DNA of 64,000 nt. Origin: Microbacteriaceae bacterium PS02344 (GTDB lineage Bacteria > Actinomycetota > Actinomycetes > Actinomycetales > Microbacteriaceae). The stretch's first letter is position 1. Each line of letters opens with the position of its first letter. The position numbers and the translations under genes were made by a program. The notes beneath the pieces are model-generated. The model saw only the letters and a list, made by a program, of their open reading frames with translations, did no database searches and was not told the origin of the DNA. The stretch lies in contig JASCNZ010000004.1 of NCBI GenBank assembly GCA_029959905.1, positions 1-64,000 of the forward strand. The letters are read 5' to 3'. Positions 25,095 through 57,278 of the stretch are shown piece after piece.

Positions 25095-25256
25095 AGGCTA
25101 AGCGGTGGACCGGCCGGGGTGCGCGACACGACGGAGGAGAACGCGGCATCGGGAATCGACTCACCATGTCCGTGTGGTGTGGAGGATGGCTCGCCCACCA
25201 TCGAACCCCGCAGAAACGGATCCACAGCCCTCGATCACCCGCATCTGCGGTACTCT
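25095..25256. promoter_or_regulatory. divergent leaderless promoters, moeB and the TOBE regulator
   Basis: On the minus strand TAGCCT (25095-25100) lies 6 bases before the moeB ATG; on the plus strand TACTCT (25251-25256) lies 6 bases before ATG 25263. The remaining spacer has no gene. Confidence 0.5.
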
Positions 25257-25262
25257 CTGCCC

Positions 25263-25655
25263 ATGCATACCTATCGCGTCGCCCGCGCCGCGCACCTCCT
25301 CGGCGTCAGCGACGACACCGTGCGACGGTGGATCGAGCAGGGACTGCTGCCGACCACCGACTCGTCGCCCGCCGAGATCCCCGGCGACGCCCTCGCCGCA
25401 CACACCCTCGCGATGGCCGCCGCCGCCGAGGCGTCGGGAGAGGCACGCACGAGCGCGCGCAACCGCTTCACGGGTCTCGTCACCCGGGTGCAGATCGACG
25501 GCCTCATGGCGCAGGTCGACATCCAGGCGGGTCCGCATCGTGTGGTCTCGCTCATGTCGGCCGAGGCGGCGCGCGAGCTGCAGCTCGAGGTCGGCGCGCT
25601 CGCCACCGCATCCGTCAAGGCGACCCAGGTCGTCGTCGAGACCCCGAAGGACTGA
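25263..25655 (+). CDS. HTH-TOBE molybdate-responsive regulator
   Basis: 130 residues in two parts: an excisionase/MerR-like DNA-binding domain (YRVARAAHLLGVSDDTVRRW, then IEQGLLPTT) and a Mop/TOBE molybdate-binding domain from about 65 (SARNRFTGLVTRVQIDGLMA, VSLMSAEAARELQLEVG, ASVKATQVVVE). Its place at the head of modABC and divergent from moeB suggests control of Mo uptake and cofactor genes. It is not classical ModE, which has a different DNA-binding domain. Confidence 0.85.
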   Translation: MHTYRVARAAHLLGVSDDTVRRWIEQGLLPTTDSSPAEIPGDALAAHTLAMAAAAEASGEARTSARNRFTGLVTRVQIDGLMAQVDIQAGPHRVVSLMSAEAARELQLEVGALATASVKATQVVVETPKD

Positions 25656-25656
25656 C

Positions 25657-26433
25657 ATGCGCACCGTCACGCGCCGTGCCCGGGTCGTCGTCGTCGTCGC
25701 CGCGCTGCTGGCGCTCAGCGGGTGCGCGTCGTCGGCGTCCGGCCCGACGGCGGCCGGCGAGACCGAGGGAAACGTCACGGGCGAGCTCACGGTCTACGCC
25801 GCGGCATCCCTGCAGGGGGCGTTCGATTCGATGGCGGATGCCTTCGTCGCCGAGCATCCCGACCTGACCGTCGTGCCGGTCTACGACGGGTCGTCGACGC
25901 TCGTCACCCAGCTGCTCGCCGGCGCGCCCGCCGATGTGTTCGCGTCGGCCGACGAGGCCACCATGCAGAAGGCGACCGAACTGACCGGCGACCCCGATCT
26001 GTTCGCCACGAACACGCTCGTGATCGCGGTGCCCGCGGGCAATCCGGCGGGCGTGGAGACCCTCGACGACCTCGCCGACGCGGTCACCGTGCTCTGCGCG
26101 CCCGAGGTTCCGTGCGGTGCGGCATCCGCCGCTCTTCTCGGCGAGGCGGGCGTCGCGGTCGACCCGGCGAGCGTCGAGCAGAACGTCACCGCCGTGCTCA
26201 CCAAGGTCGCGGCGGGTGAAGCCGACGCGGGCCTCGTCTACGCGACCGACGTGGTGGGCCGCGACGACGTCGAGGCGATCGTGCCAGACGAGGCGGCCGA
26301 CGTCGTCAACCGCTACCCCGTCGCCACGCTGCGCGACGCCGAGAACCCCGATGCGGCGGCGGCGTTCGTCGCCTTCGTGCTGTCCGATGCCGGACAGGAG
26401 ATCCTCGCCGACTTCGGATTCGGGGCGCCGTGA
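25657..26433 (+). CDS. modA: ModA, molybdate-binding lipoprotein
   Basis: 258 residues. Lipoprotein signal ending LLALSGC with Cys23, so anchored outside the membrane. The mature part follows ModA: ELTVYAAASLQGAFDSMADA, PVYDGSSTLVTQLLAGAPAD, ADEATMQKA, GLVYATDV and the C-terminal AAAFVAFVLSDAGQEILADF. ATG 25657 begins one base after the TOBE gene stop. The 3' end overlaps modB by four bases. Confidence 0.94.
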   Translation: MRTVTRRARVVVVVAALLALSGCASSASGPTAAGETEGNVTGELTVYAAASLQGAFDSMADAFVAEHPDLTVVPVYDGSSTLVTQLLAGAPADVFASADEATMQKATELTGDPDLFATNTLVIAVPAGNPAGVETLDDLADAVTVLCAPEVPCGAASAALLGEAGVAVDPASVEQNVTAVLTKVAAGEADAGLVYATDVVGRDDVEAIVPDEAADVVNRYPVATLRDAENPDAAAAFVAFVLSDAGQEILADFGFGAP

Positions 26434-27218
26434 CCTCGGCGCGGCTCACCGGCTACGTGCCGCGCGCCCTCGCGATCCCCGCGGCGATCGGGCTCGCATT
26501 CCTCCTGGTTCCGCTCGCCGCGCTCATCGCGCGGGTGGAATGGGCGACGTTCGTCGCCGACGTGACGTCCGACGCCGCACGTACCGCCCTCGGCCTCTCG
26601 CTCGGCACCGGACTGGTCGCCACCCTGGTGTGCATCGTGGTGGGCGTGCCGCTCGCGCTCCTCATCGCCCGCTCGGGGCCCCGGCTCGCCGCCGTGCTGC
26701 GCGCCGCGGTCACCGTGCCGCTCGTGCTCCCCCCGATGGTGGGCGGCGTCGCACTGCTGTACCTCTTCGGGCGCGCGGGGTGGCTCGGCGGCCTCGGTCT
26801 CTCGTTCAGTACGCCCGCGGTCGTGCTCGCGCAGACGTTCGTCGCGCTGCCGTTCCTCGTTCTCGCCGTCGAAGGCGCCGTGCGCGCCGCGGGCGTCGAT
26901 CATGAACGCACCGCGGCCGCCCTCGGCGCCGGGCGATGGACCATCCTGCGTCGCATCACTCTGCCCCTCGCCGCACCGGGGATCGTCGCCGGAGTGGTGC
27001 TCTGCTTCGCGCGGGCGATCGGCGAGTTCGGGGCGACCGCGCTGTTCGCCGGCAACCGCCCCGGCGTCACGCAGACCATGCCGCTGGCGATCTACACCGC
27101 GTTCAACGGCGCCGGGGTGTCACAGGGCGCCGCGGTGGCCCTCGCCCTCCTGCTGCTCGCCACCGCGGTCGCGGTGCTGCTGCTCGTGCGCGGATGGCGT
27201 CCCGGAGCGGCGCGATGA
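26430..27218 (+). CDS. modB: ModB, molybdate ABC permease
   Basis: 262 residues, about five to six membrane helices, with the permease-ATPase contact loop EHERTAAALGAGRWTILRRI variant (HERTAAALGAGRW) and the ModB word AIGEFGATALFAGNRPG. GTG start overlaps modA; the stop overlaps modC. Confidence 0.93.
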   Translation: MTSARLTGYVPRALAIPAAIGLAFLLVPLAALIARVEWATFVADVTSDAARTALGLSLGTGLVATLVCIVVGVPLALLIARSGPRLAAVLRAAVTVPLVLPPMVGGVALLYLFGRAGWLGGLGLSFSTPAVVLAQTFVALPFLVLAVEGAVRAAGVDHERTAAALGAGRWTILRRITLPLAAPGIVAGVVLCFARAIGEFGATALFAGNRPGVTQTMPLAIYTAFNGAGVSQGAAVALALLLLATAVAVLLLVRGWRPGAAR

Positions 27219-28270
27219 CCGGTCTGCGCGCCCGCGTCGTCGTGCCGCGCGAGCACTTCGTCGTCGACGTCTCGCTCGAGGTGGGCGAAGGTGAGACGGT
27301 CGCGGTGATGGGTCCGAGCGGGGCGGGCAAGTCGACGCTGCTGCAGGCCCTCGCCGGGCTGGTGCCGCTGTCGGACGGGCAGATCTCGGTGGGCGGGACG
27401 GTCGTCGACCGGGTGGGGTCGTCGCCCGTGCGCACCGCTCCGATGCGCCGCGGGATGGTGCTGCTCGGGCAGGACGCCCGACTGTTCCCGCACCTCTCGG
27501 TGCGCGAGAACGTCGCCTTCGGACCGCGGGCAACCGGCGTCGCGGCACGCGACGCACGAGACGCGGCCGATGCTCTGCTCGCCCGCGTCGGGCTGCCCGG
27601 AAGCGGCGACCGCTCCCCCCGAGAGCTCTCCGGCGGCGAAGCGCAGCGCGTCGCGGTCGCCCGCGCGCTCGCCGCGGCTCCCCGCGCCGTGCTCCTCGAC
27701 GAGCCGCTCGTCGCTCTCGATCCGTCGACGGCATCCGACATCCGGCGGATGCTCCGCGAACAGCTCGCCGGCGCCACCACCGTCGCGGTGACCCACGACG
27801 CCGCCGACGCCGTCGCCCTCGCCGATCGGCTCGTGGTGATCGAAGAGGGGCGCGTGACGCAGGCCGGTCGCGTGCGCGAGGTGCTCGCCGCCCCGGCATC
27901 CGCCTTCGTCGCGGCGATCGCAGGCGTGAACCGCGTCGAGGGGGTGGCGGATGCCGGGGGCTGGCGTCGCGCCGACCTGCGGCTGACGAGCACGGATGCC
28001 GCGTCGCGGGCGCTCGCCGCGCGCGACGGGCAGCCGCTCGCGGCGGTGTTCCGGCCGGCCGACGCGCGCATCGTCGGCGCGGGGGAGCGGGATGCCGACG
28101 CGTGGCGCACCGCGGTCGTCCACGTCGAACCGACGCTCGACGGGGAGCGGGTGCACACCGAGCTGTGCGCGATCGATGTTCCCCTCGCCGAGCGTCGGCG
28201 CGTCGGGGTGGGCGACACGGTGCACCTGCGGATCGACCCGCGCGGCGTGCGGTTCGTGCCGGCGGAGTAG
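27215..28270 (+). CDS. modC: ModC, molybdate ABC ATP-binding protein
   Basis: 351 residues. ATPase domain 1-230 with Walker A GPSGAGKST, signature LSGGEAQRVAVARALA, Walker B AVLLDEPLVALDP and VTHDAADAVALAD. Residues about 240-350 form a C-terminal regulatory domain of the TOBE type. ATG 27215 overlaps the modB stop (ATGA), though the frame is open further upstream. Confidence 0.93.
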   Translation: MTGLRARVVVPREHFVVDVSLEVGEGETVAVMGPSGAGKSTLLQALAGLVPLSDGQISVGGTVVDRVGSSPVRTAPMRRGMVLLGQDARLFPHLSVRENVAFGPRATGVAARDARDAADALLARVGLPGSGDRSPRELSGGEAQRVAVARALAAAPRAVLLDEPLVALDPSTASDIRRMLREQLAGATTVAVTHDAADAVALADRLVVIEEGRVTQAGRVREVLAAPASAFVAAIAGVNRVEGVADAGGWRRADLRLTSTDAASRALAARDGQPLAAVFRPADARIVGAGERDADAWRTAVVHVEPTLDGERVHTELCAIDVPLAERRRVGVGDTVHLRIDPRGVRFVPAE

Positions 28271-28311
28271 TGGATGTCCGTGAACCCGCCCTCCGCCCGC
28301 GCGGGGCGGGT

Positions 28312-28317
28312 TAGTCT
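28312..28317 (+). promoter_or_regulatory. leaderless -10 upstream of moaA
   Basis: TAGTCT, 6 bases before ATG 28324, which opens an 8-codon frame rather than moaA itself. Confidence 0.45.
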
Positions 28318-28323
28318 CGGAAG

Positions 28324-28350
28324 ATGATGGGGATCGAGGGGACGCGATGA
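28324..28350 (+). CDS. 8-residue leader peptide coupled to moaA
   Basis: ATG ATG GGG ... CGA TGA encodes MMGIEGTR; its TGA overlaps the moaA ATG as ATGA. The first ATG sits at exactly the leaderless distance from TAGTCT, so ribosomes could load here and reinitiate at moaA. The internal GAGGGGA also serves as a Shine-Dalgarno for moaA, so the frame might be incidental. Confidence 0.4.
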   Translation: MMGIEGTR

Positions 28351-29441
28351 CGGCCGTGCCGGTCGTGATCGGCCGTCGCCCCGCCTCCGGAGCCGGTGGC
28401 GACACGGCGCGCACGGTGACCGATCCGTCGGTCCGGGGACTCGTCGACACGCACGGCCGCGTGCACCGCGACCTGCGCATCTCGCTGACCGATCGCTGCT
28501 CCCTGCGCTGCACCTACTGCATGCCGGAGCAGGGGAACGAATGGCTCGCCCGCACGAGCATCCTCTCCACCGACGAGATCGTCGAGGTGGCGAGGGTCGC
28601 AGCGTCGCTCGGCATCCGCACGTTCCGACTCACCGGTGGCGAGCCGCTGCTGCGCCCCGACATCGTCGACGTCGTGCGGCGCATCGCCCTCATCGAGGGT
28701 GACGACGGCCCCGTCGAGGTCGCCATGACGACCAACGGCATCTCCCTCGCGCAGAAGCTCCCCGCGCTCATCGATGCGGGGCTGACCCGCCTCAACATCA
28801 GCATCGACACGATCGACCGCCAGAAGTTCGCCGACCTCACCCGCCGCGACCGGCTCGACGACGTGTTCGAGGGCATCGCGGCCGCCGCGGCATCCGCCCT
28901 GCGCCCGCTCAAGCTCAATGCCGTCGCGATGCGGGGTGTGAACGACGACGAGCTCGCCGACCTCGTGGCCTTCGCGATGGAAGCCGGCGCGCAGCTGCGC
29001 TTCATCGAGCAGATGCCCCTCGACGCCGGCCACACGTGGGACCGCGAGACGATGGTCACGCGGGAGGAGATCCTCGCCGCACTGGAGGAGCGGTGGACGC
29101 TCGAACCCGTTCCCGGTCGCGGCGGCGCGCCGGCCGAGAAGTGGCGCATCGATGGCGGCCCGCACGAGGTCGGCGTGATCGCCTCGGTCACCGCACCGTT
29201 CTGCGGCGCCTGCGACCGGTTGCGGCTGACCGCCGACGGGCAGCTGCGCAACTGCCTCTTCTCGAACGACGAGTACGACCTCACCGGCCTGCTGCGGGGC
29301 GAGGCATCCGTGCCGGGCCAGCGCGACGACGCGATCGCCGACCTGCTGCGGTCGTGCATCCTCGGCAAGCTGCCCGGTCACGCGATCGACGACCCGTCCT
29401 TCCTCCAGCCGGCCCGCGGGATGAACGCCATCGGCGGCTGA
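28347..29441 (+). CDS. moaA: MoaA, GTP 3',8-cyclase (radical SAM)
   Basis: 364 residues. Radical-SAM cluster CSLRCTYC with Cys51, Cys55 and Cys58; FRLTGGEPLLRPD for SAM binding; second C-terminal cluster CGACDRLRLTADGQLRNCLF; ends GMNAIGG, the Gly-Gly tail needed in MoaA. It converts GTP to the 3',8-cyclo intermediate used by MoaC. An N-terminal extension of about 30 residues precedes the core. Confidence 0.95.
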   Translation: MTAVPVVIGRRPASGAGGDTARTVTDPSVRGLVDTHGRVHRDLRISLTDRCSLRCTYCMPEQGNEWLARTSILSTDEIVEVARVAASLGIRTFRLTGGEPLLRPDIVDVVRRIALIEGDDGPVEVAMTTNGISLAQKLPALIDAGLTRLNISIDTIDRQKFADLTRRDRLDDVFEGIAAAAASALRPLKLNAVAMRGVNDDELADLVAFAMEAGAQLRFIEQMPLDAGHTWDRETMVTREEILAALEERWTLEPVPGRGGAPAEKWRIDGGPHEVGVIASVTAPFCGACDRLRLTADGQLRNCLFSNDEYDLTGLLRGEASVPGQRDDAIADLLRSCILGKLPGHAIDDPSFLQPARGMNAIGG

Positions 29442-35770: not shown

Positions 35771-35788
35771 TCCTGCGCCGCGCGCATC

Positions 35789-35852
35789 TCGCAGATCTGC
35801 AGAATGTCGCAGGTGCTCACTGCCGGGGGTGCGAGATCGTGCCGATCTGCGA
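35789..35852. repeat. nested palindrome, CGCAGATCTGC type (copy 1)
   Basis: TCGCAGATC (35789-35797) pairs with GATCTGCGA (35844-35852); the full 24-base arms pair at 19 positions. It lies between convergent metY and the 151-residue gene. Confidence 0.85.
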
Positions 35853-36477: not shown

Positions 36478-38511
36478 ATGACCTCCCGTCCGTTCGGCTC
36501 CCTGGATTGGGCGCGGAGGACTCCCGGTGTTCCGGGGCTCCTCGATGAGATCCGCCAGGCGAGCGTCTCCGACGCCCCCGAGCTTCCGCAGAGCTTCTTC
36601 ACCCGTCTCGCCGCCGCGGGTTTCGGCCGCCTCCGCGTGCCCGTGGCCGAGGGCGGTCTGGGCGGCGATGTCCTCGACCTGCTCGACGCCCTCACCGCCG
36701 TCGCCGCCGCCGACTCGAACCTCGCTCAGGCCTGGCGCACCCACGTGCTGGCCACCGAACGGCATGTCAAGACCCCCGCCGGTCCCCTGCGGGATCGCTG
36801 GATCGGGCGCATCGCGGCGGGGGCGATCATCGGCGGCGGATGGACCGAGGCCGACGGCTCCGGCCCCCGCGTGTTCACGACCCGCCTCTCGACCGAGACG
36901 GGCATCCCCCGCCTGACCGGCCGCAAGTTCTACTCGACGGGCAGCCGTTACGCCGACTGGCTGGAGTACAGCGCGGTCGACGACGCGGACAAGCTGGTGA
37001 TCGCGGCGCTCCCGAAGGACTCGCCGGGGGTCGCGCTGCTCGACGACTGGACCGGCTTCGGTCAGCGCGCCACCGCGAGCGGCACCACCGTGCTCGACGG
37101 CGCCCCGGTCGACCCCCACGACGTCGCCCCCTGGCAGACGCAGCACCTCGGCACCCCGGGCTGGCAGCAGATGATCCTGCTCGCCGTGCTCGTCGGCATC
37201 GGCGAGGGCGCGCGCGCCGCGGCCGCCGATCTCGTCGACCGCATCGATGGCTCCCACGGGGGCTCGCCGATCCTCGTGCTCGAGGGGTACGGGCGCATCA
37301 GCGCGCTCGTCGCCTCGGCGCGCGCCTCGCTCGGCGAGATCGGCCGCCTCAGCGAGGTCGCGCATCAGGCCATCATCGGTCGGCAGCAGGATGCCGAGAC
37401 CCTCGCCGACGACGCCGTGAACGCGGTGTTCCAGGCGCAGGCCACCATCGTTCCGCAGGTGATCGAGGCCGCCGACCGGCTCATGACCCTGCCGGCACTG
37501 CTCGACGACACGGCCGAGGCGCAGAACCTGCGCAGCACGCTGCGGCTCGACCGGTTCTGGCGCAATGCGCAGACGCTCTCGACGCACAACCCGGTGCTGC
37601 ACCGCCTCCGCGCGATCGCCGACCGCGAGATCTACGCGATCGATCGCATCGCCGAGCCGACCGAGCGCGAGGCCGCCGTGTCGCGCGCGATCGCCGAGAG
37701 CATCCGTCCGCTGAGCGTCGTGCGGATCGACGCCGCGCTCGCCGGCCGCCTCACCGCCGATCCGCGGTCGCTCGACACCGTGGCCGATGCGTTCGCGGGG
37801 CGCGAGCCGGTGCTGTTCCAGTTCGACGAGCGCGCGGGGGCGCACTTCGACCCCGCTGTCGCCGTCGCCACGCTGCTGCACCGCCTGCCCTCGGCATGGT
37901 TCGCGGTCGGCACCGGAGACCTCGACGACACTGGGCACCCCTACAACCTCGCCCGCCGCATCGCCTCGCTCGAGCAGTTGTCCGGCGGACGCACGGCCTG
38001 GGTGCTGAACGACGGCGACACCGAGACCGAAGAGCAGCGCGACCGCATCCGCGTGGTGCAGCAATTGCTGCGCACGTGGCCGCGCGAGTCCATCGCCGCG
38101 GATGCCGACGCCCCGCACTTCGCGCAGACCGAGAGCATCCGTCGCATCAACGCCGACGGCGCCTTCCCCTCGGCCGGCCCGCTGAACGTGCCCAGCAGTC
38201 CGCAGCACCTGCCGGTGTTCGTGTCGTCGCGTCGGTTCGACGACGTGCACCGCTACGTCGACCTGCTCGTGCGCGACGGCGCATGGGTGCTGCCGTATGC
38301 GGATGCCGGCGGGTACCCGCTCGCGACGGCGCACGCGGCGTCCGACATCGACGAGGTGCTCGCGATCGCCGGCGGGCTGCCGGTCGATAGCGATGCAAAT
38401 GCCGCGCCGCAGACCCTGCGCGCCCGGCTGCGGCTGCCCGCGCCGGCCCTGTACGAGCTCCCCGGAGCATCCGCCCGCTTCGAGCGAGGCAGCGAGACGG
38501 AGGCGTCATGA
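36478..38511 (+). CDS. fusion: acyl-CoA-dehydrogenase-like monooxygenase plus reduced luciferase-like domain
   Basis: 677 residues, about 270 longer than the family norm. Residues 1-395 are a DszC/SfnB-like acyl-CoA-dehydrogenase fold: GFGRLRVPVAEGGLGGDVLD, ADSNLAQAWRTH, GRKFYSTGSRYADWLEY and the C-terminal LRLDRFWRNAQTLSTHNPV. Residues about 405-660 match the separate 259-residue protein at 39880-40659: HPYNLARRIASLEQLSGGR (from residue 487) against HPINLARTIATLSNLHARR, and FPSAGPLNVP against FPSIGGPLTVP. So a luciferase-like half has joined a flavin monooxygenase. Relatives use FMNH2 and O2 to oxidise sulfur compounds. The stop overlaps the next monooxygenase by four bases. Confidence 0.82.
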   Translation: MTSRPFGSLDWARRTPGVPGLLDEIRQASVSDAPELPQSFFTRLAAAGFGRLRVPVAEGGLGGDVLDLLDALTAVAAADSNLAQAWRTHVLATERHVKTPAGPLRDRWIGRIAAGAIIGGGWTEADGSGPRVFTTRLSTETGIPRLTGRKFYSTGSRYADWLEYSAVDDADKLVIAALPKDSPGVALLDDWTGFGQRATASGTTVLDGAPVDPHDVAPWQTQHLGTPGWQQMILLAVLVGIGEGARAAAADLVDRIDGSHGGSPILVLEGYGRISALVASARASLGEIGRLSEVAHQAIIGRQQDAETLADDAVNAVFQAQATIVPQVIEAADRLMTLPALLDDTAEAQNLRSTLRLDRFWRNAQTLSTHNPVLHRLRAIADREIYAIDRIAEPTEREAAVSRAIAESIRPLSVVRIDAALAGRLTADPRSLDTVADAFAGREPVLFQFDERAGAHFDPAVAVATLLHRLPSAWFAVGTGDLDDTGHPYNLARRIASLEQLSGGRTAWVLNDGDTETEEQRDRIRVVQQLLRTWPRESIAADADAPHFAQTESIRRINADGAFPSAGPLNVPSSPQHLPVFVSSRRFDDVHRYVDLLVRDGAWVLPYADAGGYPLATAHAASDIDEVLAIAGGLPVDSDANAAPQTLRARLRLPAPALYELPGASARFERGSETEAS

Positions 38512-39761
38512 GCGACGAGAACCGCCTGCTCACGGTCAACATCAACGTGCTCGGAGTCGGTCAGCGGCCGGCGGCCTGGCGCGCGCCCGACATCCGTCCC
38601 GACGCGATCGTCGACCTCGCCCACTGGCAGAACGTGGCGCGCATCGCCGAGCGCGGGCTGGTCGATGCGATCTTCCTCGCCGACCGCCCCGCGATCACCG
38701 ATCCGCGCAGCCGTCCGGTGCAGTACCTCGACCCGGGGGTGCTCGTGCCGGCGATGGCGGCGGCGACTGAGCACCTGGGCTTCGTGGCGACCGCGTCCAC
38801 CACGCTCAACGAACCGGTCGAGCTCGCGCGCCGGCTGTGGGCATTGCACACCGCGACGCAGGGGCGTTTCGCCTGGAACGCCGTCACCAGCTGGGACGTC
38901 GAGGCCATGCGCAACTTCGGCCTCACCGAGGTGCCCGAGCGCGAGGTGCGGTACGCCCGCGCCGAGGAGTTCGTGTCGGTCGTGAAGCGGCTGTGGGCGA
39001 CCGCCGGCACCTCGGAGGTCGTGGAGCACGACGGGTCGTTCGCGGTGCACGCCGGGCTCGAGATGGAGGCGCTCGTCCCCGAGCGCCCGGCGATCGTGCA
39101 GGCCGGCGGGTCGGAGCCGGGCTGGCGCCTGGCGGGACTCGTCGCCGACGGCGTGTACTCGGTCGACCACGATCCCGCCTCGGCGGCGGAGCACCGGCAG
39201 AAGATCCGCTCGTACGCGGTGGAGGCGGGGCGGTCGGCCGACGACGTGCGCGTCTTCCCCGGACTCGCGGTCGTGATCGGCAGCACCGAGCAGGAGGCGT
39301 GGGAGCGGTTCGACCACTGGGAGCACCTCGCGCCCGCCACCTACAGCCTCAACGAGCTGTCGAAGGCGCTCGGCGCCGACTTCTCGGGGCTCGACCTCGA
39401 CGCGCCGGTGCCCGCGCAGATCCTCGCGGATGCCGAGGCGCAGGATGCCGGATGGTCGGCGGCGTATCGTCGGGTGCTGATCGAGCGGATCCGGACGGAG
39501 CAGCCGACGATCCGCCGCCTGCTGCGCGACTTCGGCGGCTACGGGCAGCGATTCCTCGCCGGGACGCCCGAGCAGATCGCCGACACGATGGAGGAGTGGT
39601 TCCGGTCGGGATCGGCCGACGGCTTCAACATCATGCTCGACCTCTTCCCCTCCGGGCTCGAGGACTTCGTCGACCAGGTCGTGCCCGAGCTGCAGCGCCG
39701 GGGCATCTTCCGGCGCGAGTACGGGCAGGGTGGGGTGCTGGAGCGCTTCCGGCAGCCGTAG
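38508..39761 (+). CDS. luciferase-like flavin monooxygenase (NtaA/SnaA/DszA type)
   Basis: 417 residues, TIM-barrel FMNH2-dependent oxygenase. HWQNVARIAERGLVDAIFLA near residue 45, ATASTTLNEPVELARRLW, GRFAWNAVTSWDVEAMRNFG with the following RYARAEEFV, and VQAGGSEPGWRLA are typical of the NtaA/SnaA/DszA subgroup; DGFNIMLDLFPSGLEDFVD closes the barrel. It must receive reduced FMN from a separate reductase; a candidate is at 44709. Overlaps the fusion gene (ATGA). Exact substrate unknown. Confidence 0.88.
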   Translation: MSDENRLLTVNINVLGVGQRPAAWRAPDIRPDAIVDLAHWQNVARIAERGLVDAIFLADRPAITDPRSRPVQYLDPGVLVPAMAAATEHLGFVATASTTLNEPVELARRLWALHTATQGRFAWNAVTSWDVEAMRNFGLTEVPEREVRYARAEEFVSVVKRLWATAGTSEVVEHDGSFAVHAGLEMEALVPERPAIVQAGGSEPGWRLAGLVADGVYSVDHDPASAAEHRQKIRSYAVEAGRSADDVRVFPGLAVVIGSTEQEAWERFDHWEHLAPATYSLNELSKALGADFSGLDLDAPVPAQILADAEAQDAGWSAAYRRVLIERIRTEQPTIRRLLRDFGGYGQRFLAGTPEQIADTMEEWFRSGSADGFNIMLDLFPSGLEDFVDQVVPELQRRGIFRREYGQGGVLERFRQP

Positions 39762-39799
39762 CGGTGCGTGGGGGGTTCGCGGAACCTCCCGTCACAGCG

Positions 39800-39865
39800 C
39801 TCGCAGATCTGCACGATCTCGCAGGCACTGAGGGCGAAGCATCCGAGATCCTGCAGAACTGCGAG
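39800..39865. repeat. nested palindrome, CGCAGATCTGC type (copy 2)
   Basis: 22-base arms (39800-39821 and 39844-39865) pair at 20 positions around a 22-base loop; the left arm opens CTCGCAGATCTGCACG. It lies between the two convergent monooxygenase modules. Confidence 0.88.
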
Positions 39866-39879
39866 ATGGTGCGGCGGCG

Positions 39880-40659
39880 TCAGACCCGGGTGAGGCGTCC
39901 CGGGCCGGCGAAGGCGGGCGTGCCGGTAGAGAAGGCGACGGATGCCCCGAGACCGAAGGCCGCTCGTGCGCCGACGGCATCCGTGTGGCGGTCATCGCCG
40001 AGCACCGGCACCGCACGCGCTGACGCCGGTACGGTGTCTCCCGCCGCAGCGGCGTCGCCGGCGTCGACGGCGGCCTCGACACGCGTCGTCGCGCCCCAGA
40101 CGGGGAGGGCGGCGGCATCGAGCACCACGTCGACGCCCGGCGCCACCAACCCCGTCGATGAGAGAAGCACTGTCACCGGCTTGTCCGACACATCGACCGG
40201 TACGGTCAACGGCCCGCCGATCGACGGGAACTCCGGGTCGTCGATCCGCACGATGCGCGCGTCGTCGACGAACGCCCCGACATCGGCGTCGCGCGCCACC
40301 GCATCCAGAGGCCACGTCTCGAAGAGCCGCGAGATCAGCGCCAGCAGCGCCCCCGATGTCGCGGCCAGCCCGACGCGCCGCGCGTGCAGGTTCGACAGCG
40401 TCGCGATCGTGCGGGCCAGGTTGATCGGATGCTGTCGCGCACCGACGATCGGCACCACGACGACCCGCCGGGTGATCGCGAGCAGCGCGGCCGCGGCGGC
40501 CGTGCGGTCAGGCCCGGGTCCGTCGAGGTCGCCGAGCAGCAGCACGTCGGCCGTCGCGTCGAGTTCGGCGCCGAGAGCAGCGCGCTCCGCTCGGCCGGAA
40601 CCGGCTCGTACCGCGAAGGCGGCAAGGGTCGCGTCGTCGACGCGCAGAAGACGGGTCAT
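39880..40659 (-). CDS. reduced luciferase-like subunit
   Basis: 259 residues, about 60% of a luciferase-family barrel. VDVLLLGDL-type strands (TADVLLLGDLDGPGPDR), ITRRVVVVPIVGARQHPINL and ALISRLFETWPLDAVARDAD match the C-terminal half of the fusion at 36478. The usual flavin-site pattern GRFAWNxVT of the full-length neighbours is missing, so it may be a non-catalytic partner, comparable in idea to LuxB. Its ATG overlaps the stop of the full-length monooxygenase by four bases, as expected for a stoichiometric partner. Confidence 0.6.
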   Translation of the reverse strand: MTRLLRVDDATLAAFAVRAGSGRAERAALGAELDATADVLLLGDLDGPGPDRTAAAAALLAITRRVVVVPIVGARQHPINLARTIATLSNLHARRVGLAATSGALLALISRLFETWPLDAVARDADVGAFVDDARIVRIDDPEFPSIGGPLTVPVDVSDKPVTVLLSSTGLVAPGVDVVLDAAALPVWGATTRVEAAVDAGDAAAAGDTVPASARAVPVLGDDRHTDAVGARAAFGLGASVAFSTGTPAFAGPGRLTRV

Positions 40660-41924
40660 CGGCGCAGTCCTCTCAGCCAGGCGGTGAACGGTTCGTCGCC
40701 CGGGCCCGTGAGCAGCCCGCGCGAGCGCAGCACCGGAGTGACGTGCTCGGCGAACTCGCGCAGCCCCCAGGGGTTGGTGTCGAAGAGCAGGTTGAACCCG
40801 TCGGCGGCGCCGGCATCCACCCAGTCGGTCATGATGTCGACCAATCGCTCGGGCGAGCCGACGAAGAGCTGGTGCCCGAACCCCGCGAAGTACCGCAGCA
40901 GCTCGCGCACCGTGAGATCGCCCGCCGCGCCGTACGCCGCGATCGCCTTCCGGAATCCGATCGGCGCCGCGGAGGGGTCGCCGGACAGGCGCTGGATCTC
41001 GCCCTCGGCGGGGGCGTCGAGGTCGAGCCGTGAGCCGTCGATGCCGAACATCGCCGTGAACCTCCGGAGCACATAGCCCTCGGGTCCGCGCTCGTGGATG
41101 AGCGCGAAGCGTCGCTCGGCCTCCTCCTCCGTCGAGCCGACGACGAGGTGGATGCCGGGCAGCACGAGCGGGGCGGGGCGACCGAGTCCGGCCGCGCGCT
41201 GCCGTAGATCTCGACGGTTCTCGGCCGCCGTCTCCTTCACGGTCTCGGCGGCGAACACCGCCTCGGCGCTCGCGGCGGCGAGCTGGCGGCCGCGCGGCGA
41301 ACCGCCCGCCTGCACCACGAGCGGGGCGACCTCGGGCAGGAGGCGGCGGATGGCCGGGTCGACGCCGAGGTCGCCACGGCCGATGCCGTCGCCGAAGTAC
41401 TCCCCCTCGTGCACGTAGTCGGTTCCGGCCTGCACCGCGGCCAGGAACGCGGTGTACGCGGCGACGAACTCCTCGGCCCGGGCGTAGCGCTCCTCGCGGC
41501 CGGGGTCGGCGTCGTAGCCGAAGTCGGTGACGGCCGGACCGGTCACCCCGGTCACCACGTTCCATCCGAAGCGCGAGCCGCTGAACGCACTCGTCGTCAA
41601 CAGGCGGCGGGCGAGCTCGACGGGATCGTTCGTGCTCGACGACACGGTCGAGATGATGCCGAGTCTCTCGGTCTCGGCGGCGACGGTCGCGAGCGCGGCG
41701 AGCGGCTCCAGCAATCGGCTCGGACGGATCGCGGGGTTCGCGGCGAGACCCGGGGTATCGGCGAGGAAGATGGCGTGGAGCCCGGCATCCTCCGCGGTGC
41801 GGGCGGCATCACGCCAGAAGTCGGCACCGAACACGCGCAAGGGATCTTCGCCCGGCGTGCGCCAGGCCCCGGCATCCGTGCCGTAGTCGTACACGTTCGC
41901 GCCGAGCACCAGGGGACGGGGCAT
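40656..41924 (-). CDS. luciferase-like flavin monooxygenase (NtaA/SnaA/DszA type)
   Basis: 422 residues, paralogue of the enzyme at 38508. MPRPLVLGANVYDYG start, FWRDAARTAEDAGLHAIFLA, ISTVSSSTNDPVELARRLL, SRFGWNVVTGVTGPAVTDFG, VVQAGGSPRGRQLAA and DGFNLLFDTNPWGLREFAE. ATG 41924 shares its A with the stop of the upstream dehydrogenase-like gene (TGATG); GAGGAGACC lies upstream, although the frame stays open further. Works with reduced FMN; substrate unknown. Confidence 0.87.
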   Translation of the reverse strand: MPRPLVLGANVYDYGTDAGAWRTPGEDPLRVFGADFWRDAARTAEDAGLHAIFLADTPGLAANPAIRPSRLLEPLAALATVAAETERLGIISTVSSSTNDPVELARRLLTTSAFSGSRFGWNVVTGVTGPAVTDFGYDADPGREERYARAEEFVAAYTAFLAAVQAGTDYVHEGEYFGDGIGRGDLGVDPAIRRLLPEVAPLVVQAGGSPRGRQLAAASAEAVFAAETVKETAAENRRDLRQRAAGLGRPAPLVLPGIHLVVGSTEEEAERRFALIHERGPEGYVLRRFTAMFGIDGSRLDLDAPAEGEIQRLSGDPSAAPIGFRKAIAAYGAAGDLTVRELLRYFAGFGHQLFVGSPERLVDIMTDWVDAGAADGFNLLFDTNPWGLREFAEHVTPVLRSRGLLTGPGDEPFTAWLRGLRR

Positions 41925-43267
41925 CAGAGGGTCTCCTCGTGATCTCGCAGATCTGCAGAATCCCGCAGCTGCTCGGGGCGGGGCGTTCGAGATTCGGCAG
42001 AACTGCGACGTTCTGCCGCCTCCGGGGTCGGCCCCGCGGTGCCGACGTACCAGATCGCGGGCAGGTCGCCGCCCCCCAGAGCACGCTCGCCGAGCGCCCG
42101 TGCCTTGAGATGCACGGGGTTGTGGTTGCTGAGCGTGCGGGCGTTGCGCCAATGCCGGTCGAGGCCGAGGCGCGCATCGACGAGCGATCCGCCGCCGAGG
42201 TCGAACACGCTCTGCGCGGCCTGCATCACGAGCGCGGGTACCGTGACCTGCGCGCGGGTGACGGCGAGGTGTCCGTCGCCGGTCTGCGCGTCGCGAGGGC
42301 GATCGAGGTCGGCGCCGAGCACCGCGGCCGCGGCACGCACCGAGGCGACGACCGCCTGCGCAAGGCCCTCGAGAGTGCCGATGCGCTCCTGCAACTGGGG
42401 GTCGTCGGCGGGCAGCGCGTGCGACGCGTGGCTGAACGTACGGGTGCGGGTGCGCAGCCAGGCCACGGCGTCGTCTCGCACCCGCAGCGCGATCCCCGCG
42501 AGGGTCGCGAGATGCGCGAGCTGCAGCACGGCGTCGACCGACCCCGGCCGGTCGGCCCCCGGCGCTTCACCGACGCGCACGCGCGCGGGATCGACGGCGA
42601 CATCGACGAACTCGACGGTGCCGGAGGTGGTGAGCCTCTGGCCCACGCCGCGCCAGTCGTCGTGCCGGGTGATGCCGTCGGCATCCGCCCGCACGACGGC
42701 GACGAGATGCCGGCCGTCGTCATCGGAGGCGAGCACCTGTATCCAGTCGGCATAGCCGGTACCGGTCGCGTAGACCTTGCGGCCGTTCAGGCGCAGGATG
42801 CCCTCGCCATCGCGACGCAGCGTCGTCCCCACCGTGCCGACCTCCCCGGCGCCCTCCGTGGTGGCTCCGGCGAAGAGGCGACCGGCGGCGATCTCGGCCG
42901 CGAGCTCATCGGTCGCGACATGCGCCTCACCGCGGGCGATCGCCCGAGCGGCGCGGTCGCTCGCGGTGAAGTGCGTGCGCAGGCTCTGGGTCACGTTCGC
43001 ATCGGCGCGCGCCAGGAGGATCTGCAGGTCGACGAGCTGCGGGTAGCTCAGCCCCGCGCCGCCGACCTCGACCGGAAGACGGGCGGCGGTCAGGCCCAGC
43101 GATGCGAGCGCGCGCACATCGGCGCGCAGGCCGCCATCGGGGTCGCCGTCGCGGTCGCGGGCGGCCGATGCGGCGGCGATCCGGGCGATCACGTCGTCGA
43201 TCGCGGCGTTCCTGCCGCCGATGCCGACGTCGCTGACCGTCGTGAGCGCGAGCAGATCGTCGGACAT
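41924..43267 (-). CDS. acyl-CoA-dehydrogenase-like flavin monooxygenase (DszC/SfnB type)
   Basis: 447 residues. N-terminal helical part (LGLTAARLPVEVGGAGLSYP, ANVTQSLRTHF), middle beta part (GRKVYATGTGYADWIQVLAS) and C-terminal helices ending FDLGGGSLVDARLGLDRHWR, then ARTLSNHNP. This resembles the FMNH2-dependent sulfur oxygenases DszC and SfnB. About 25 residues near the end (420-442, with SAESRTPRPEQLRDSADLRD) are encoded by a palindromic repeat, so the C-terminus has been extended by the repeat. The start after an AhpD-like gene (10-base gap) and overlap with the monooxygenase downstream make a four-gene operon. Confidence 0.87.
   Translation of the reverse strand: MSDDLLALTTVSDVGIGGRNAAIDDVIARIAAASAARDRDGDPDGGLRADVRALASLGLTAARLPVEVGGAGLSYPQLVDLQILLARADANVTQSLRTHFTASDRAARAIARGEAHVATDELAAEIAAGRLFAGATTEGAGEVGTVGTTLRRDGEGILRLNGRKVYATGTGYADWIQVLASDDDGRHLVAVVRADADGITRHDDWRGVGQRLTTSGTVEFVDVAVDPARVRVGEAPGADRPGSVDAVLQLAHLATLAGIALRVRDDAVAWLRTRTRTFSHASHALPADDPQLQERIGTLEGLAQAVVASVRAAAAVLGADLDRPRDAQTGDGHLAVTRAQVTVPALVMQAAQSVFDLGGGSLVDARLGLDRHWRNARTLSNHNPVHLKARALGERALGGGDLPAIWYVGTAGPTPEAAERRSSAESRTPRPEQLRDSADLRDHEETL
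41944..42009. repeat. nested palindrome, CGCAGATCTGC type (copy 3, inside a gene)
   Basis: 22-base arms (41944-41965, 41988-42009) pair at 18 positions around a 22-base loop. Unlike other copies it lies within a reading frame, forming the tail of the dehydrogenase-like protein. Confidence 0.85.
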
Positions 43268-49613: not shown

Positions 49614-49693
49614 GCGGGATCTCGCAGATCTGCACGATCTCGCAGGGAACGGTGGCATTCCCTGCGAGATGCGGTAGATCTGCGAGATCCCGC
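49614..49693. repeat. nested palindrome, CGCAGATCTGC type (copy 4)
   Basis: The best copy: 36-base arms (49614-49649 and 49658-49693) pair at 32 positions around an 8-base loop; the four mismatches cluster in the middle. It sits between the convergent secreted-protein and GH20 genes, 9 bases from one stop and 15 from the other. Confidence 0.92.
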
Positions 49694-57154: not shown

Positions 57155-57189
57155 TCCGGCTCCGCGCCGACTGACCCCGCGCCCGAGTC

Positions 57190-57255
57190 CTCGCAGATCT
57201 GCACGATCACGCAGGACCAGGACGGTATCGCTGCGTGAATCTGCAGATCTGCGAG
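57190..57255. repeat. nested palindrome, CGCAGATCTGC type (copy 5)
   Basis: 25-base arms (57190-57214 and 57231-57255) pair at 22 positions, starting CTCGCAGATCTGCA; loop of 16. Between the convergent ROK and purQ genes. Confidence 0.88.
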
Positions 57256-57278
57256 ATTCTGCGGGAGGTCCCGCGCGC

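Follow-up and report, generated by a model that had tools for sequence, protein, structure and literature searches.

In the dsz system, an acyl-CoA dehydrogenase (ACAD)-type enzyme stands next to an NtaA/DszA-like luciferase-like monooxygenase (LLM), and the FadE28–FadE29-type ACADs of steroid-degrading actinobacteria combine two unlike full-length chains and have fewer flavin sites than chains. As for LLMs, the part of PMC8027225 that was consulted describes NtfO2, which lacks a conserved side loop, and NtfO1, which has it, as a heterodimer both in the crystal (PDB 7E36) and in solution. Here, we report on a 64,000-nucleotide stretch of DNA (positions 1 to 64,000 of contig JASCNZ010000004.1; hereafter, the window) from Microbacteriaceae bacterium PS02344, a soil-type bacterium with a genome of 3.19 Mb in 139 contigs, in which both kinds of enzyme occur together in two convergent flavin-oxygenase modules. 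We consider it probable that these modules encode two two-component flavin monooxygenase systems with obligate reduced partners, that the ACAD of the plus-strand module pairs with a small protein, P0007, and that both systems oxidize organosulfur compounds. Our judgment is evenly balanced on a further proposal, namely that the plus-strand module represents a new architecture: through reciprocal loss, two flavin monooxygenases would each consist of a catalytic chain plus a reduced partner without catalytic function, the catalytic chain of one would be fused to the partner of the other, and the resulting four-part, three-gene assembly would perform two successive oxygenations.

Complementary segment loss in the two oxygenase families

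The first-pass annotation had recognized two convergent modules, one with a fused and one with a separate reduced LLM, and we confirmed all of these genes, their order, and their coordinates. On the plus strand, P0001 (36478..38511, +; 677 aa) joins a DszC/MsuC-like ACAD (residues ~1–390) to a reduced O1-type LLM domain (~410–660), and its stop codon overlaps, as ATGA, the start codon of P0002 (38508..39761, +), a full O2-type LLM with a short side loop. The minus-strand module begins with P0006 (43278..43622, −), a CMD/AhpD-like gene (PF02627, 4.6e-19; TIGR00778), followed by the ACAD-type monooxygenase P0005 (41924..43267, −) with a complete C-terminal domain, the full O2-type LLM P0004 (40656..41924, −) with a shortened side loop, and the separate reduced O1-type LLM P0003 (39880..40659, −; 259 aa), the last three having overlapping starts and stops. 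P0002 and P0004 are NtaA/DmoA-type LLMs, and P0005 and the ACAD part of P0001 are SfnB/DszC-like. A sixth oxygenase-type gene had been overlooked: P0007 (35878..36333, −; 151 aa), a reduced ACAD that amounts to a free-standing ACAD C-terminal helical domain (Acyl-CoA_dh_2, 1.9e-4), sits between a metY gene and the fusion gene and is divergent from the latter.

Both full LLMs found the NtfO2 chain (7e36_B) as their best PDB match (2.4e-67 for P0002 and 7.9e-46 for P0004); among the reduced LLMs, one from Gordonia (L075) matched the NtfO1 chain, 7e36_A, at 9.2e-8, third in its list. With the NtaA/DmoA family model TIGR03860 (cut-off: 279.7 bits), P0002 scored 375.2 bits and P0004 276.3 bits, 3.4 bits below the cut-off, and the reduced domains of P0001 and P0003 scored 53.1 and 22.6 bits, respectively, both under it. 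The reduced domains align with just part of the NtaA family; P0003 scored 241 bits with our reduced-LLM profile, which includes the P0003 row itself. Thus, the earlier reading of the reduced domain as luciferase-like held up in its sequence matches to NtaA-family chains, its fold having been predicted only within the fusion.

The side loop distinguishes the LLMs that have a reduced partner nearby. We measured it between two fixed anchors in alignments based on a hidden Markov model, keeping 147 distinct segments and dropping 48 rows that were fragments or low scorers. Loop length was 43–52 residues in 30 of 30 distinct LLM segments with a separate or fused reduced LLM within 2.5 kb (43 in P0002 and 52 in P0004) and 59–67 residues in 117 of 117 distinct segments without one nearby, counts that are not of independent events, as the loci were fetched via the same families and include near orthologues. 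In the alignment, the reduced LLM rows retain the side-loop segment around SWP..S/DA..D...G, and 23 reduced rows lack WN.VT, a segment of the flavin mononucleotide (FMN) site. Conversely, among the eight FMN-site residues of NtfO2 (taken from the consulted part of PMC8027225), six were identical in all 24 short-loop LLMs, F222 was F or Y, and H151 was R in every case. The reduced LLM, to which the first-pass annotation had given no specific role, is not a decayed copy, because the loop missing from its partner LLM is kept in it. By analogy, the LLM pairs are probably new members of the NtfO1–NtfO2 kind and work alike. In the predicted model of P0001 (predicted local distance difference test, pLDDT, 83), the retained loop segment (residues 536–575) was among the lowest-confidence parts, and 19 of its 40 columns were identical across six fused rows; such low confidence would be expected if the segment were ordered solely by a partner.

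A corresponding split was found on the ACAD side. A structure search placed residues 8–391 of P0001 closest to DszC (3x0y; Z 40.5, root-mean-square deviation 2.6, 370 aligned), followed by TdsC and MsuC (Z 39.1). The structure prediction of the fusion that the first-pass annotation had suggested was therefore informative for the ACAD part and barely probed the LLM part: ACAD chains filled the search, and the lack of LLM chains in it carries no meaning. Three C-domain segments characterize group D ACADs, namely (1) R.R..HG...ADDPQ-like, (2) F(D/E)..G(A/G)S-like, and (3) WRNART..HNP, and we scored them in 150 distinct sequences after dropping 36 rows. All seven fused ACADs counted have lost segments 1 and 2 and kept segment 3 (WRN..HN); an eighth (L050), outside the count, shows the same pattern by eye in the alignment. 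Among the 143 other distinct ACADs, segment 2 was present at normal length in 142 and segment 1 in 132; ten others carry E for D in a normal-length segment, and one distant ACAD (L055, 13677–14960) lacks all three segments. P0005 and the aligned ACADs of unfused triads have all three, so that segments 1 and 2 stand in one chain in P0005 and not in the fused ACAD. It is P0007 and its seven orthologues (8 of 8) that keep segments 1 and 2, and these lack segment 3 (RNART..HNP).

General family models recognize P0007 weakly (22.2 bits with Pfam Acyl-CoA_dh_2, just below the cut-off of 22.7, and 14.9 bits with NCBIfam). Its AlphaFold2 model (mean pLDDT 87; predicted template modeling score 0.82) has the fold of the ACAD C-terminal helical bundle: Foldseek returned ACAD chains with probability 1.00 at an E-value of 0.024 at best, and the best match of a VIA structure search had Z 14.8 (root-mean-square deviation 3.7, 138 aligned), a value to be read with care for a helical bundle. 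Some of the 50 VIA rows listed are presumably other enzymes of the same fold, and others are acyl-CoA dehydrogenases. Across the P0007 proteins of all eight fusion loci, 22 columns are invariant, and the ratio of nonsynonymous to synonymous substitution rates (dN/dS) of P0007 was 0.20–0.30 against three congeners. In ACADs generally, segments 1 and 2 are expected to extend to the flavin bound by an adjacent chain. The simplest reading of these sequences would be a heteromer in which P0007 acts as a flavin clamp for the fused chain; if true, a free ACAD C-terminal domain acting in this way in trans would be a new kind of subunit.

Taken together, both systems would be fed reduced FMN (FMNH2) by a separate reductase, and the active LLM of each module would be an obligate heterodimer of a full O2-type and a reduced O1-type chain. 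P0002 and P0004 would bind FMN but lack the side loop for subunit contact; the O1-type chains (the C-terminal part of P0001, and P0003) would supply the loop and lack the FMN-site segment. P0005, with all of its C-domain segments, should be able to act without a reduced ACAD. The plus-module ACAD would be divided, the fused chain contributing WRN..HN and P0007, as its C-terminal partner, the two missing segments. The fusion may couple this assembly with the LLM heterodimer, allowing the substrate to be handed from one oxygenation to the next. The chemistry would be stepwise organosulfur oxidation, with S-oxidation by the ACAD as in DszC or Dms2, C–S cleavage by the LLM as in DszA or DmoA, and uptake of the released sulfur by MetY-type enzymes.

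Distribution and ancestry of the modules

We found the full-length fusion in eight genomes of three genera, with a dN/dS of 0.17–0.23 within the genus; it is therefore more than a product of chance. It was present in 6 of 366 genomes of the genus and, in a sample of 398 genomes of the family, outside the genus only in G444, a Mycetocola genome. The closest named relatives of the fusion were those of Microbacterium galbinum (87%) and M. oxydans (81%). P0007 adjoins the fusion in all eight cases (the window, L047, L132, L048 on the same contig as L138, L133, L049, L134, and L050), and its profile scored above 230 bits in 6 of the 366 genomes of the genus, exactly those with the full-length fusion. 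Matches of 44–63 bits in 17 further genus genomes lie in open frames of 413–1383 residues and, from their sequences, read as C-domains of complete ACADs. Both modules are present and convergent in seven of the eight fusion genomes, L134 having the fusion module alone, and the CMD/AhpD gene is present in six of the eight.

Unfused triads of an ACAD, a full LLM, and a reduced LLM (RED) were found in Gordonia, Williamsia, Dactylosporangium, Amycolatopsis, Nonomuraea, Nocardia, and Rhodococcus, in the orders ACAD-RED-LLM, RED-ACAD-LLM, and ACAD-LLM-RED; in Dactylosporangium, another LLM lies between the ACAD and the RED gene. The three gene orders, together with co-occurrence and reciprocal loop loss, strengthen the earlier proposal that the parts act together. 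Next to the unfused triads inspected, we saw no homologue of P0007. In our view, the fused state is derived. In a sample of 396 genomes of the phylum, 33 matched the reduced-LLM profile, mostly through ordinary LLMs; among the matches examined further, real reduced LLMs were those of G1059, G826, and G368.

The paralogy of the two modules, which had been noted before, also stands, but it is ancient. In a tree of 45 hand-picked LLM rows, the 29 short-loop rows formed one group against the 16 long-loop rows (support 100/98), and P0002 and P0004 fell in separate deep lineages, the branching order among the short-loop lineages being unresolved. On this sequence evidence, we regard the two modules as deep paralogues. 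A recent tandem duplication was ruled out, the LLMs being in separate deep lineages.

Genomic neighbours, substrate class, and competing explanations

The upstream neighbour of the plus module is P0008 (34406..35770, +), a MetY-type O-acetylhomoserine sulfhydrylase (PF01053, 9.8e-122; TIGR01326, 471 bits with a cut-off of 495), as the first-pass annotation had placed it, and MetY adjoins the fusion locus in six of the eight genomes. Two more full-length MetY homologues (48–51% identity) are encoded elsewhere in the genome of the window. A link to MetY that is independent of the fusion locus was found in the same genus (G368), where a large operon (L191:3-14750) contains MetY, an ACAD, an aldo-keto reductase, several LLMs, an oligopeptide-type ATP-binding cassette (ABC) transporter, and a reduced/full LLM pair. 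Plasmid pRB98 of Rhodococcus oxybenzonivorans (L140:3838-13236) carries two reduced/full LLM pairs in divergent orientation. In one, MetQNI-type transporter genes separate the two halves; the other is accompanied by an ACAD, and a TauD/TfdA gene comes next. Binding-protein ABC transporters precede RED-ACAD-LLM triads in R. rhodochrous pGD02.2.1 (by annotation) and in Nocardia carnea (L053, SBP_bac_5), and an SBP_bac_5 protein is encoded near the fusion in L134. The KPN_01854 transporter family (TIGR04028) was rejected for three neighbouring binding proteins (102–161 bits against a cut-off of 468.5). Accordingly, the earlier remark that no transporter is visible holds for the window and does not extend to related triads elsewhere.

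Because triads in relatives lie, in some cases, beside ABC transporters, MetQNI, TauD, or MetY, we favor organosulfur scavenging as the likely role. Oxidative release of sulfur, which the first-pass annotation had suggested, thus keeps good standing as a hypothesis, although it leaves unexplained a nucleoside hydrolase found in relatives (see below). Group D enzymes of Acinetobacter convert dimethyl sulfide to dimethyl sulfoxide and dimethyl sulfone, according to the consulted part of PMC13352529. Induced genes of Gordonia NB4-1Y (RS14155–RS14165 and RS14725–RS14730; PMC7661421) and ACADs of G. alkanivorans 135 (PMC11852219), each source having been consulted in part, serve as leads only and are not mapped to the triads. 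An equivalence of the triad to Corynebacterium glutamicum seuABC was considered as a conjecture and is not adopted here.

The flavin reductase P0009 (44709..45221, +; PF01613, 2.3e-29) follows a ferredoxin gene and is separated by 1.4 kb from P0005, the ACAD of the minus module, and not by 3–8 kb as had been stated. It is not a conserved neighbour: the corresponding position showed no flavin reductase in L048, L049, and L133, the three relatives whose fetched flank reaches far enough. Since the reductase is not conserved beside the locus, any cellular reductase may serve, and P0009 itself is a possible supplier of FMNH2, judging from its sequence.

An extra ACAD, P0011, overlaps the end of metY by 4 bases in L047 (5240–6448) and L048 (5706–6914) and also occurs in L132 and L133; at this place, the window has a palindromic element alone and no ACAD. 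This element is ~68 bp long, with the ends ctcgcagatctgc, and has five copies in the window (35787–35852, 39799–39866, 41943–42010, 49620–49687, and 57189–57256), four between convergent genes and one that supplies the coding sequence for the C-terminal tail of P0005, the ACAD. All five fold better than shuffled sequences (z −3.0 to −10.5), and the 13-base core has nine exact occurrences in the genome, six of which are in the window. Elsewhere in the window (25105–29441), an SBP_bac_11/BPD_transp_1-type solute-binding protein and permease lie near a MoaA-like radical S-adenosylmethionine gene, possibly a molybdate transport and cofactor cluster.

Several observations weigh against our overall explanation. 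Complex formation is deduced from sequences, and the flavin contact of ACAD segments 1 and 2 is general knowledge of the family. Assignment of the ACADs to SfnB (TIGR04022, cut-off 430.9 bits; P0005 215.8, P0001 159.8) or to DszC (NF043015, cut-off 850 bits; P0005 92.0, P0001 47.5) was rejected. In the PDB searches, the matches of P0003 were limited to 3sdo, 5tlc, and 1rhc (E up to 1), whereas P0001 found 7e36_B at 0.0018; neither listed 7e36_A. The Foldseek E-value of P0007 and the relatedness of the loci in the loop test, both given above, belong here as well. Four of the six strong P0007 matches cross one stop codon upstream of the chosen start, being open from that start, the dN/dS of P0007 rises to 0.82 against Mycetocola, and the co-occurrence of P0007 with the fusion may in part reflect inheritance as a block. 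On the functional side, the fetched surroundings of L134 and L050 showed no MetY. Moreover, of the seven genomes with both modules, five (all but the window and L050) have in the minus operon a nucleoside hydrolase, which sulfur release does not explain; those at L047:15508-16572 and L049:14642-15640 were tested with PF01156.

The alternative that survives best accepts the assemblies and changes the substrate: N-heterocycle or nucleoside-derived compounds, or a secondary metabolite, would be hydroxylated or cleaved instead of an organosulfur compound. The nucleoside hydrolase, which in L134 (4922–7600) adjoins the fusion and in the five relatives belongs to the minus operon, would suit such a role, as would the aldo-keto reductases in L134 and L191, but a family search found no PF01156 nucleoside hydrolase in the genome of the window. 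The consulted part of PMC8027225 has NtfO1–NtfO2 hydroxylating a polyketide intermediate, so that sulfur chemistry is not a given for a heterodimeric LLM, and the PDB relatives include the monooxygenases of nitrilotriacetate and ethylenediaminetetraacetate; on the ACAD side, however, the closest structures are DszC, TdsC, and MsuC. With MetY in six of the eight loci and in L191, and with MetQNI-type genes and TauD on pRB98, we regard a substrate other than an organosulfur compound as unlikely.

Much less credible is the view of P0007 as an ACAD fragment in decay and of the reduced domains as remnants or structural aids, with modules that encode independent, conventional homo-oligomeric enzymes and a fusion that is accidental: the weak family scores of P0007, its absence beside the unfused triads inspected, and its ratio against Mycetocola would fit decay, but its presence at every fusion locus and in the same six of 366 genomes, its invariant columns, its low ratios against congeners, and its confidently predicted fold do not, and the clean loop split of the 147 LLM segments and the solved NtfO1–NtfO2 heterodimer speak against homodimers.

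Comparison with known systems

If our explanation in terms of paired oxygenases with obligate partners is right, the locus offers a concrete example of two flavin enzymes made obligate heteromers by complementary domain loss and then joined by gene fusion. Side-loop length would provide a simple sequence rule by which a single gene may reveal whether the NtaA-family monooxygenase that it encodes depends on a reduced partner. Partners of this sort could easily be omitted from activity assays; on two plasmids, their annotation reads 'hypothetical protein' or 'LLM class flavin-dependent oxidoreductase' (the latter on pRB98). If the sulfur reading is also true, an unrecognized route of organosulfur use in actinobacteria would be at hand.

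Our literature search, with subscription papers mostly outside its reach, found no published ACAD–LLM fusion or free ACAD C-domain subunit. What is new is the recurrent linkage of NtfO1–NtfO2-type pairs with ACAD monooxygenases in actinobacteria, the ACAD–LLM fusion, and the free ACAD C-terminal domain, which mirrors on the ACAD side the role of the reduced LLM.

Like the window, NtfO1–NtfO2, StmO1–StmO2, and NgnO1–NgnO2 (7E36; PMC8027225, consulted in part) combine a loop-less FMN-binding LLM with a loop-bearing reduced LLM, and NtfO1–NtfO2, the best PDB match of both window LLMs, has largely identical FMN-site residues. NtfO1–NtfO2 serves macrolide biosynthesis, and the text consulted mentions no ACAD partner for it, whereas in the window an ACAD monooxygenase is fused to one reduced chain and another is clustered with the second, and the full LLMs that partner them have the replacement of H151. 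Relative to the NtaA/DmoA family (TIGR03860), the side loop of the window LLMs is ~9–19 residues shorter, and we propose an obligate partner for them. Of the group D enzymes DszC/TdsC, MsuC, and SfnB, the first three are nearest in structure to the fused ACAD part, which also resembles the dsz system in standing beside an NtaA/DszA-like LLM; unlike these enzymes, the fused form is missing two C-domain segments and is accompanied by a separate C-domain protein. The FadE28–FadE29 type resembles the plus module in having unlike ACAD chains, but in the window the partner would be a C-terminal domain alone.

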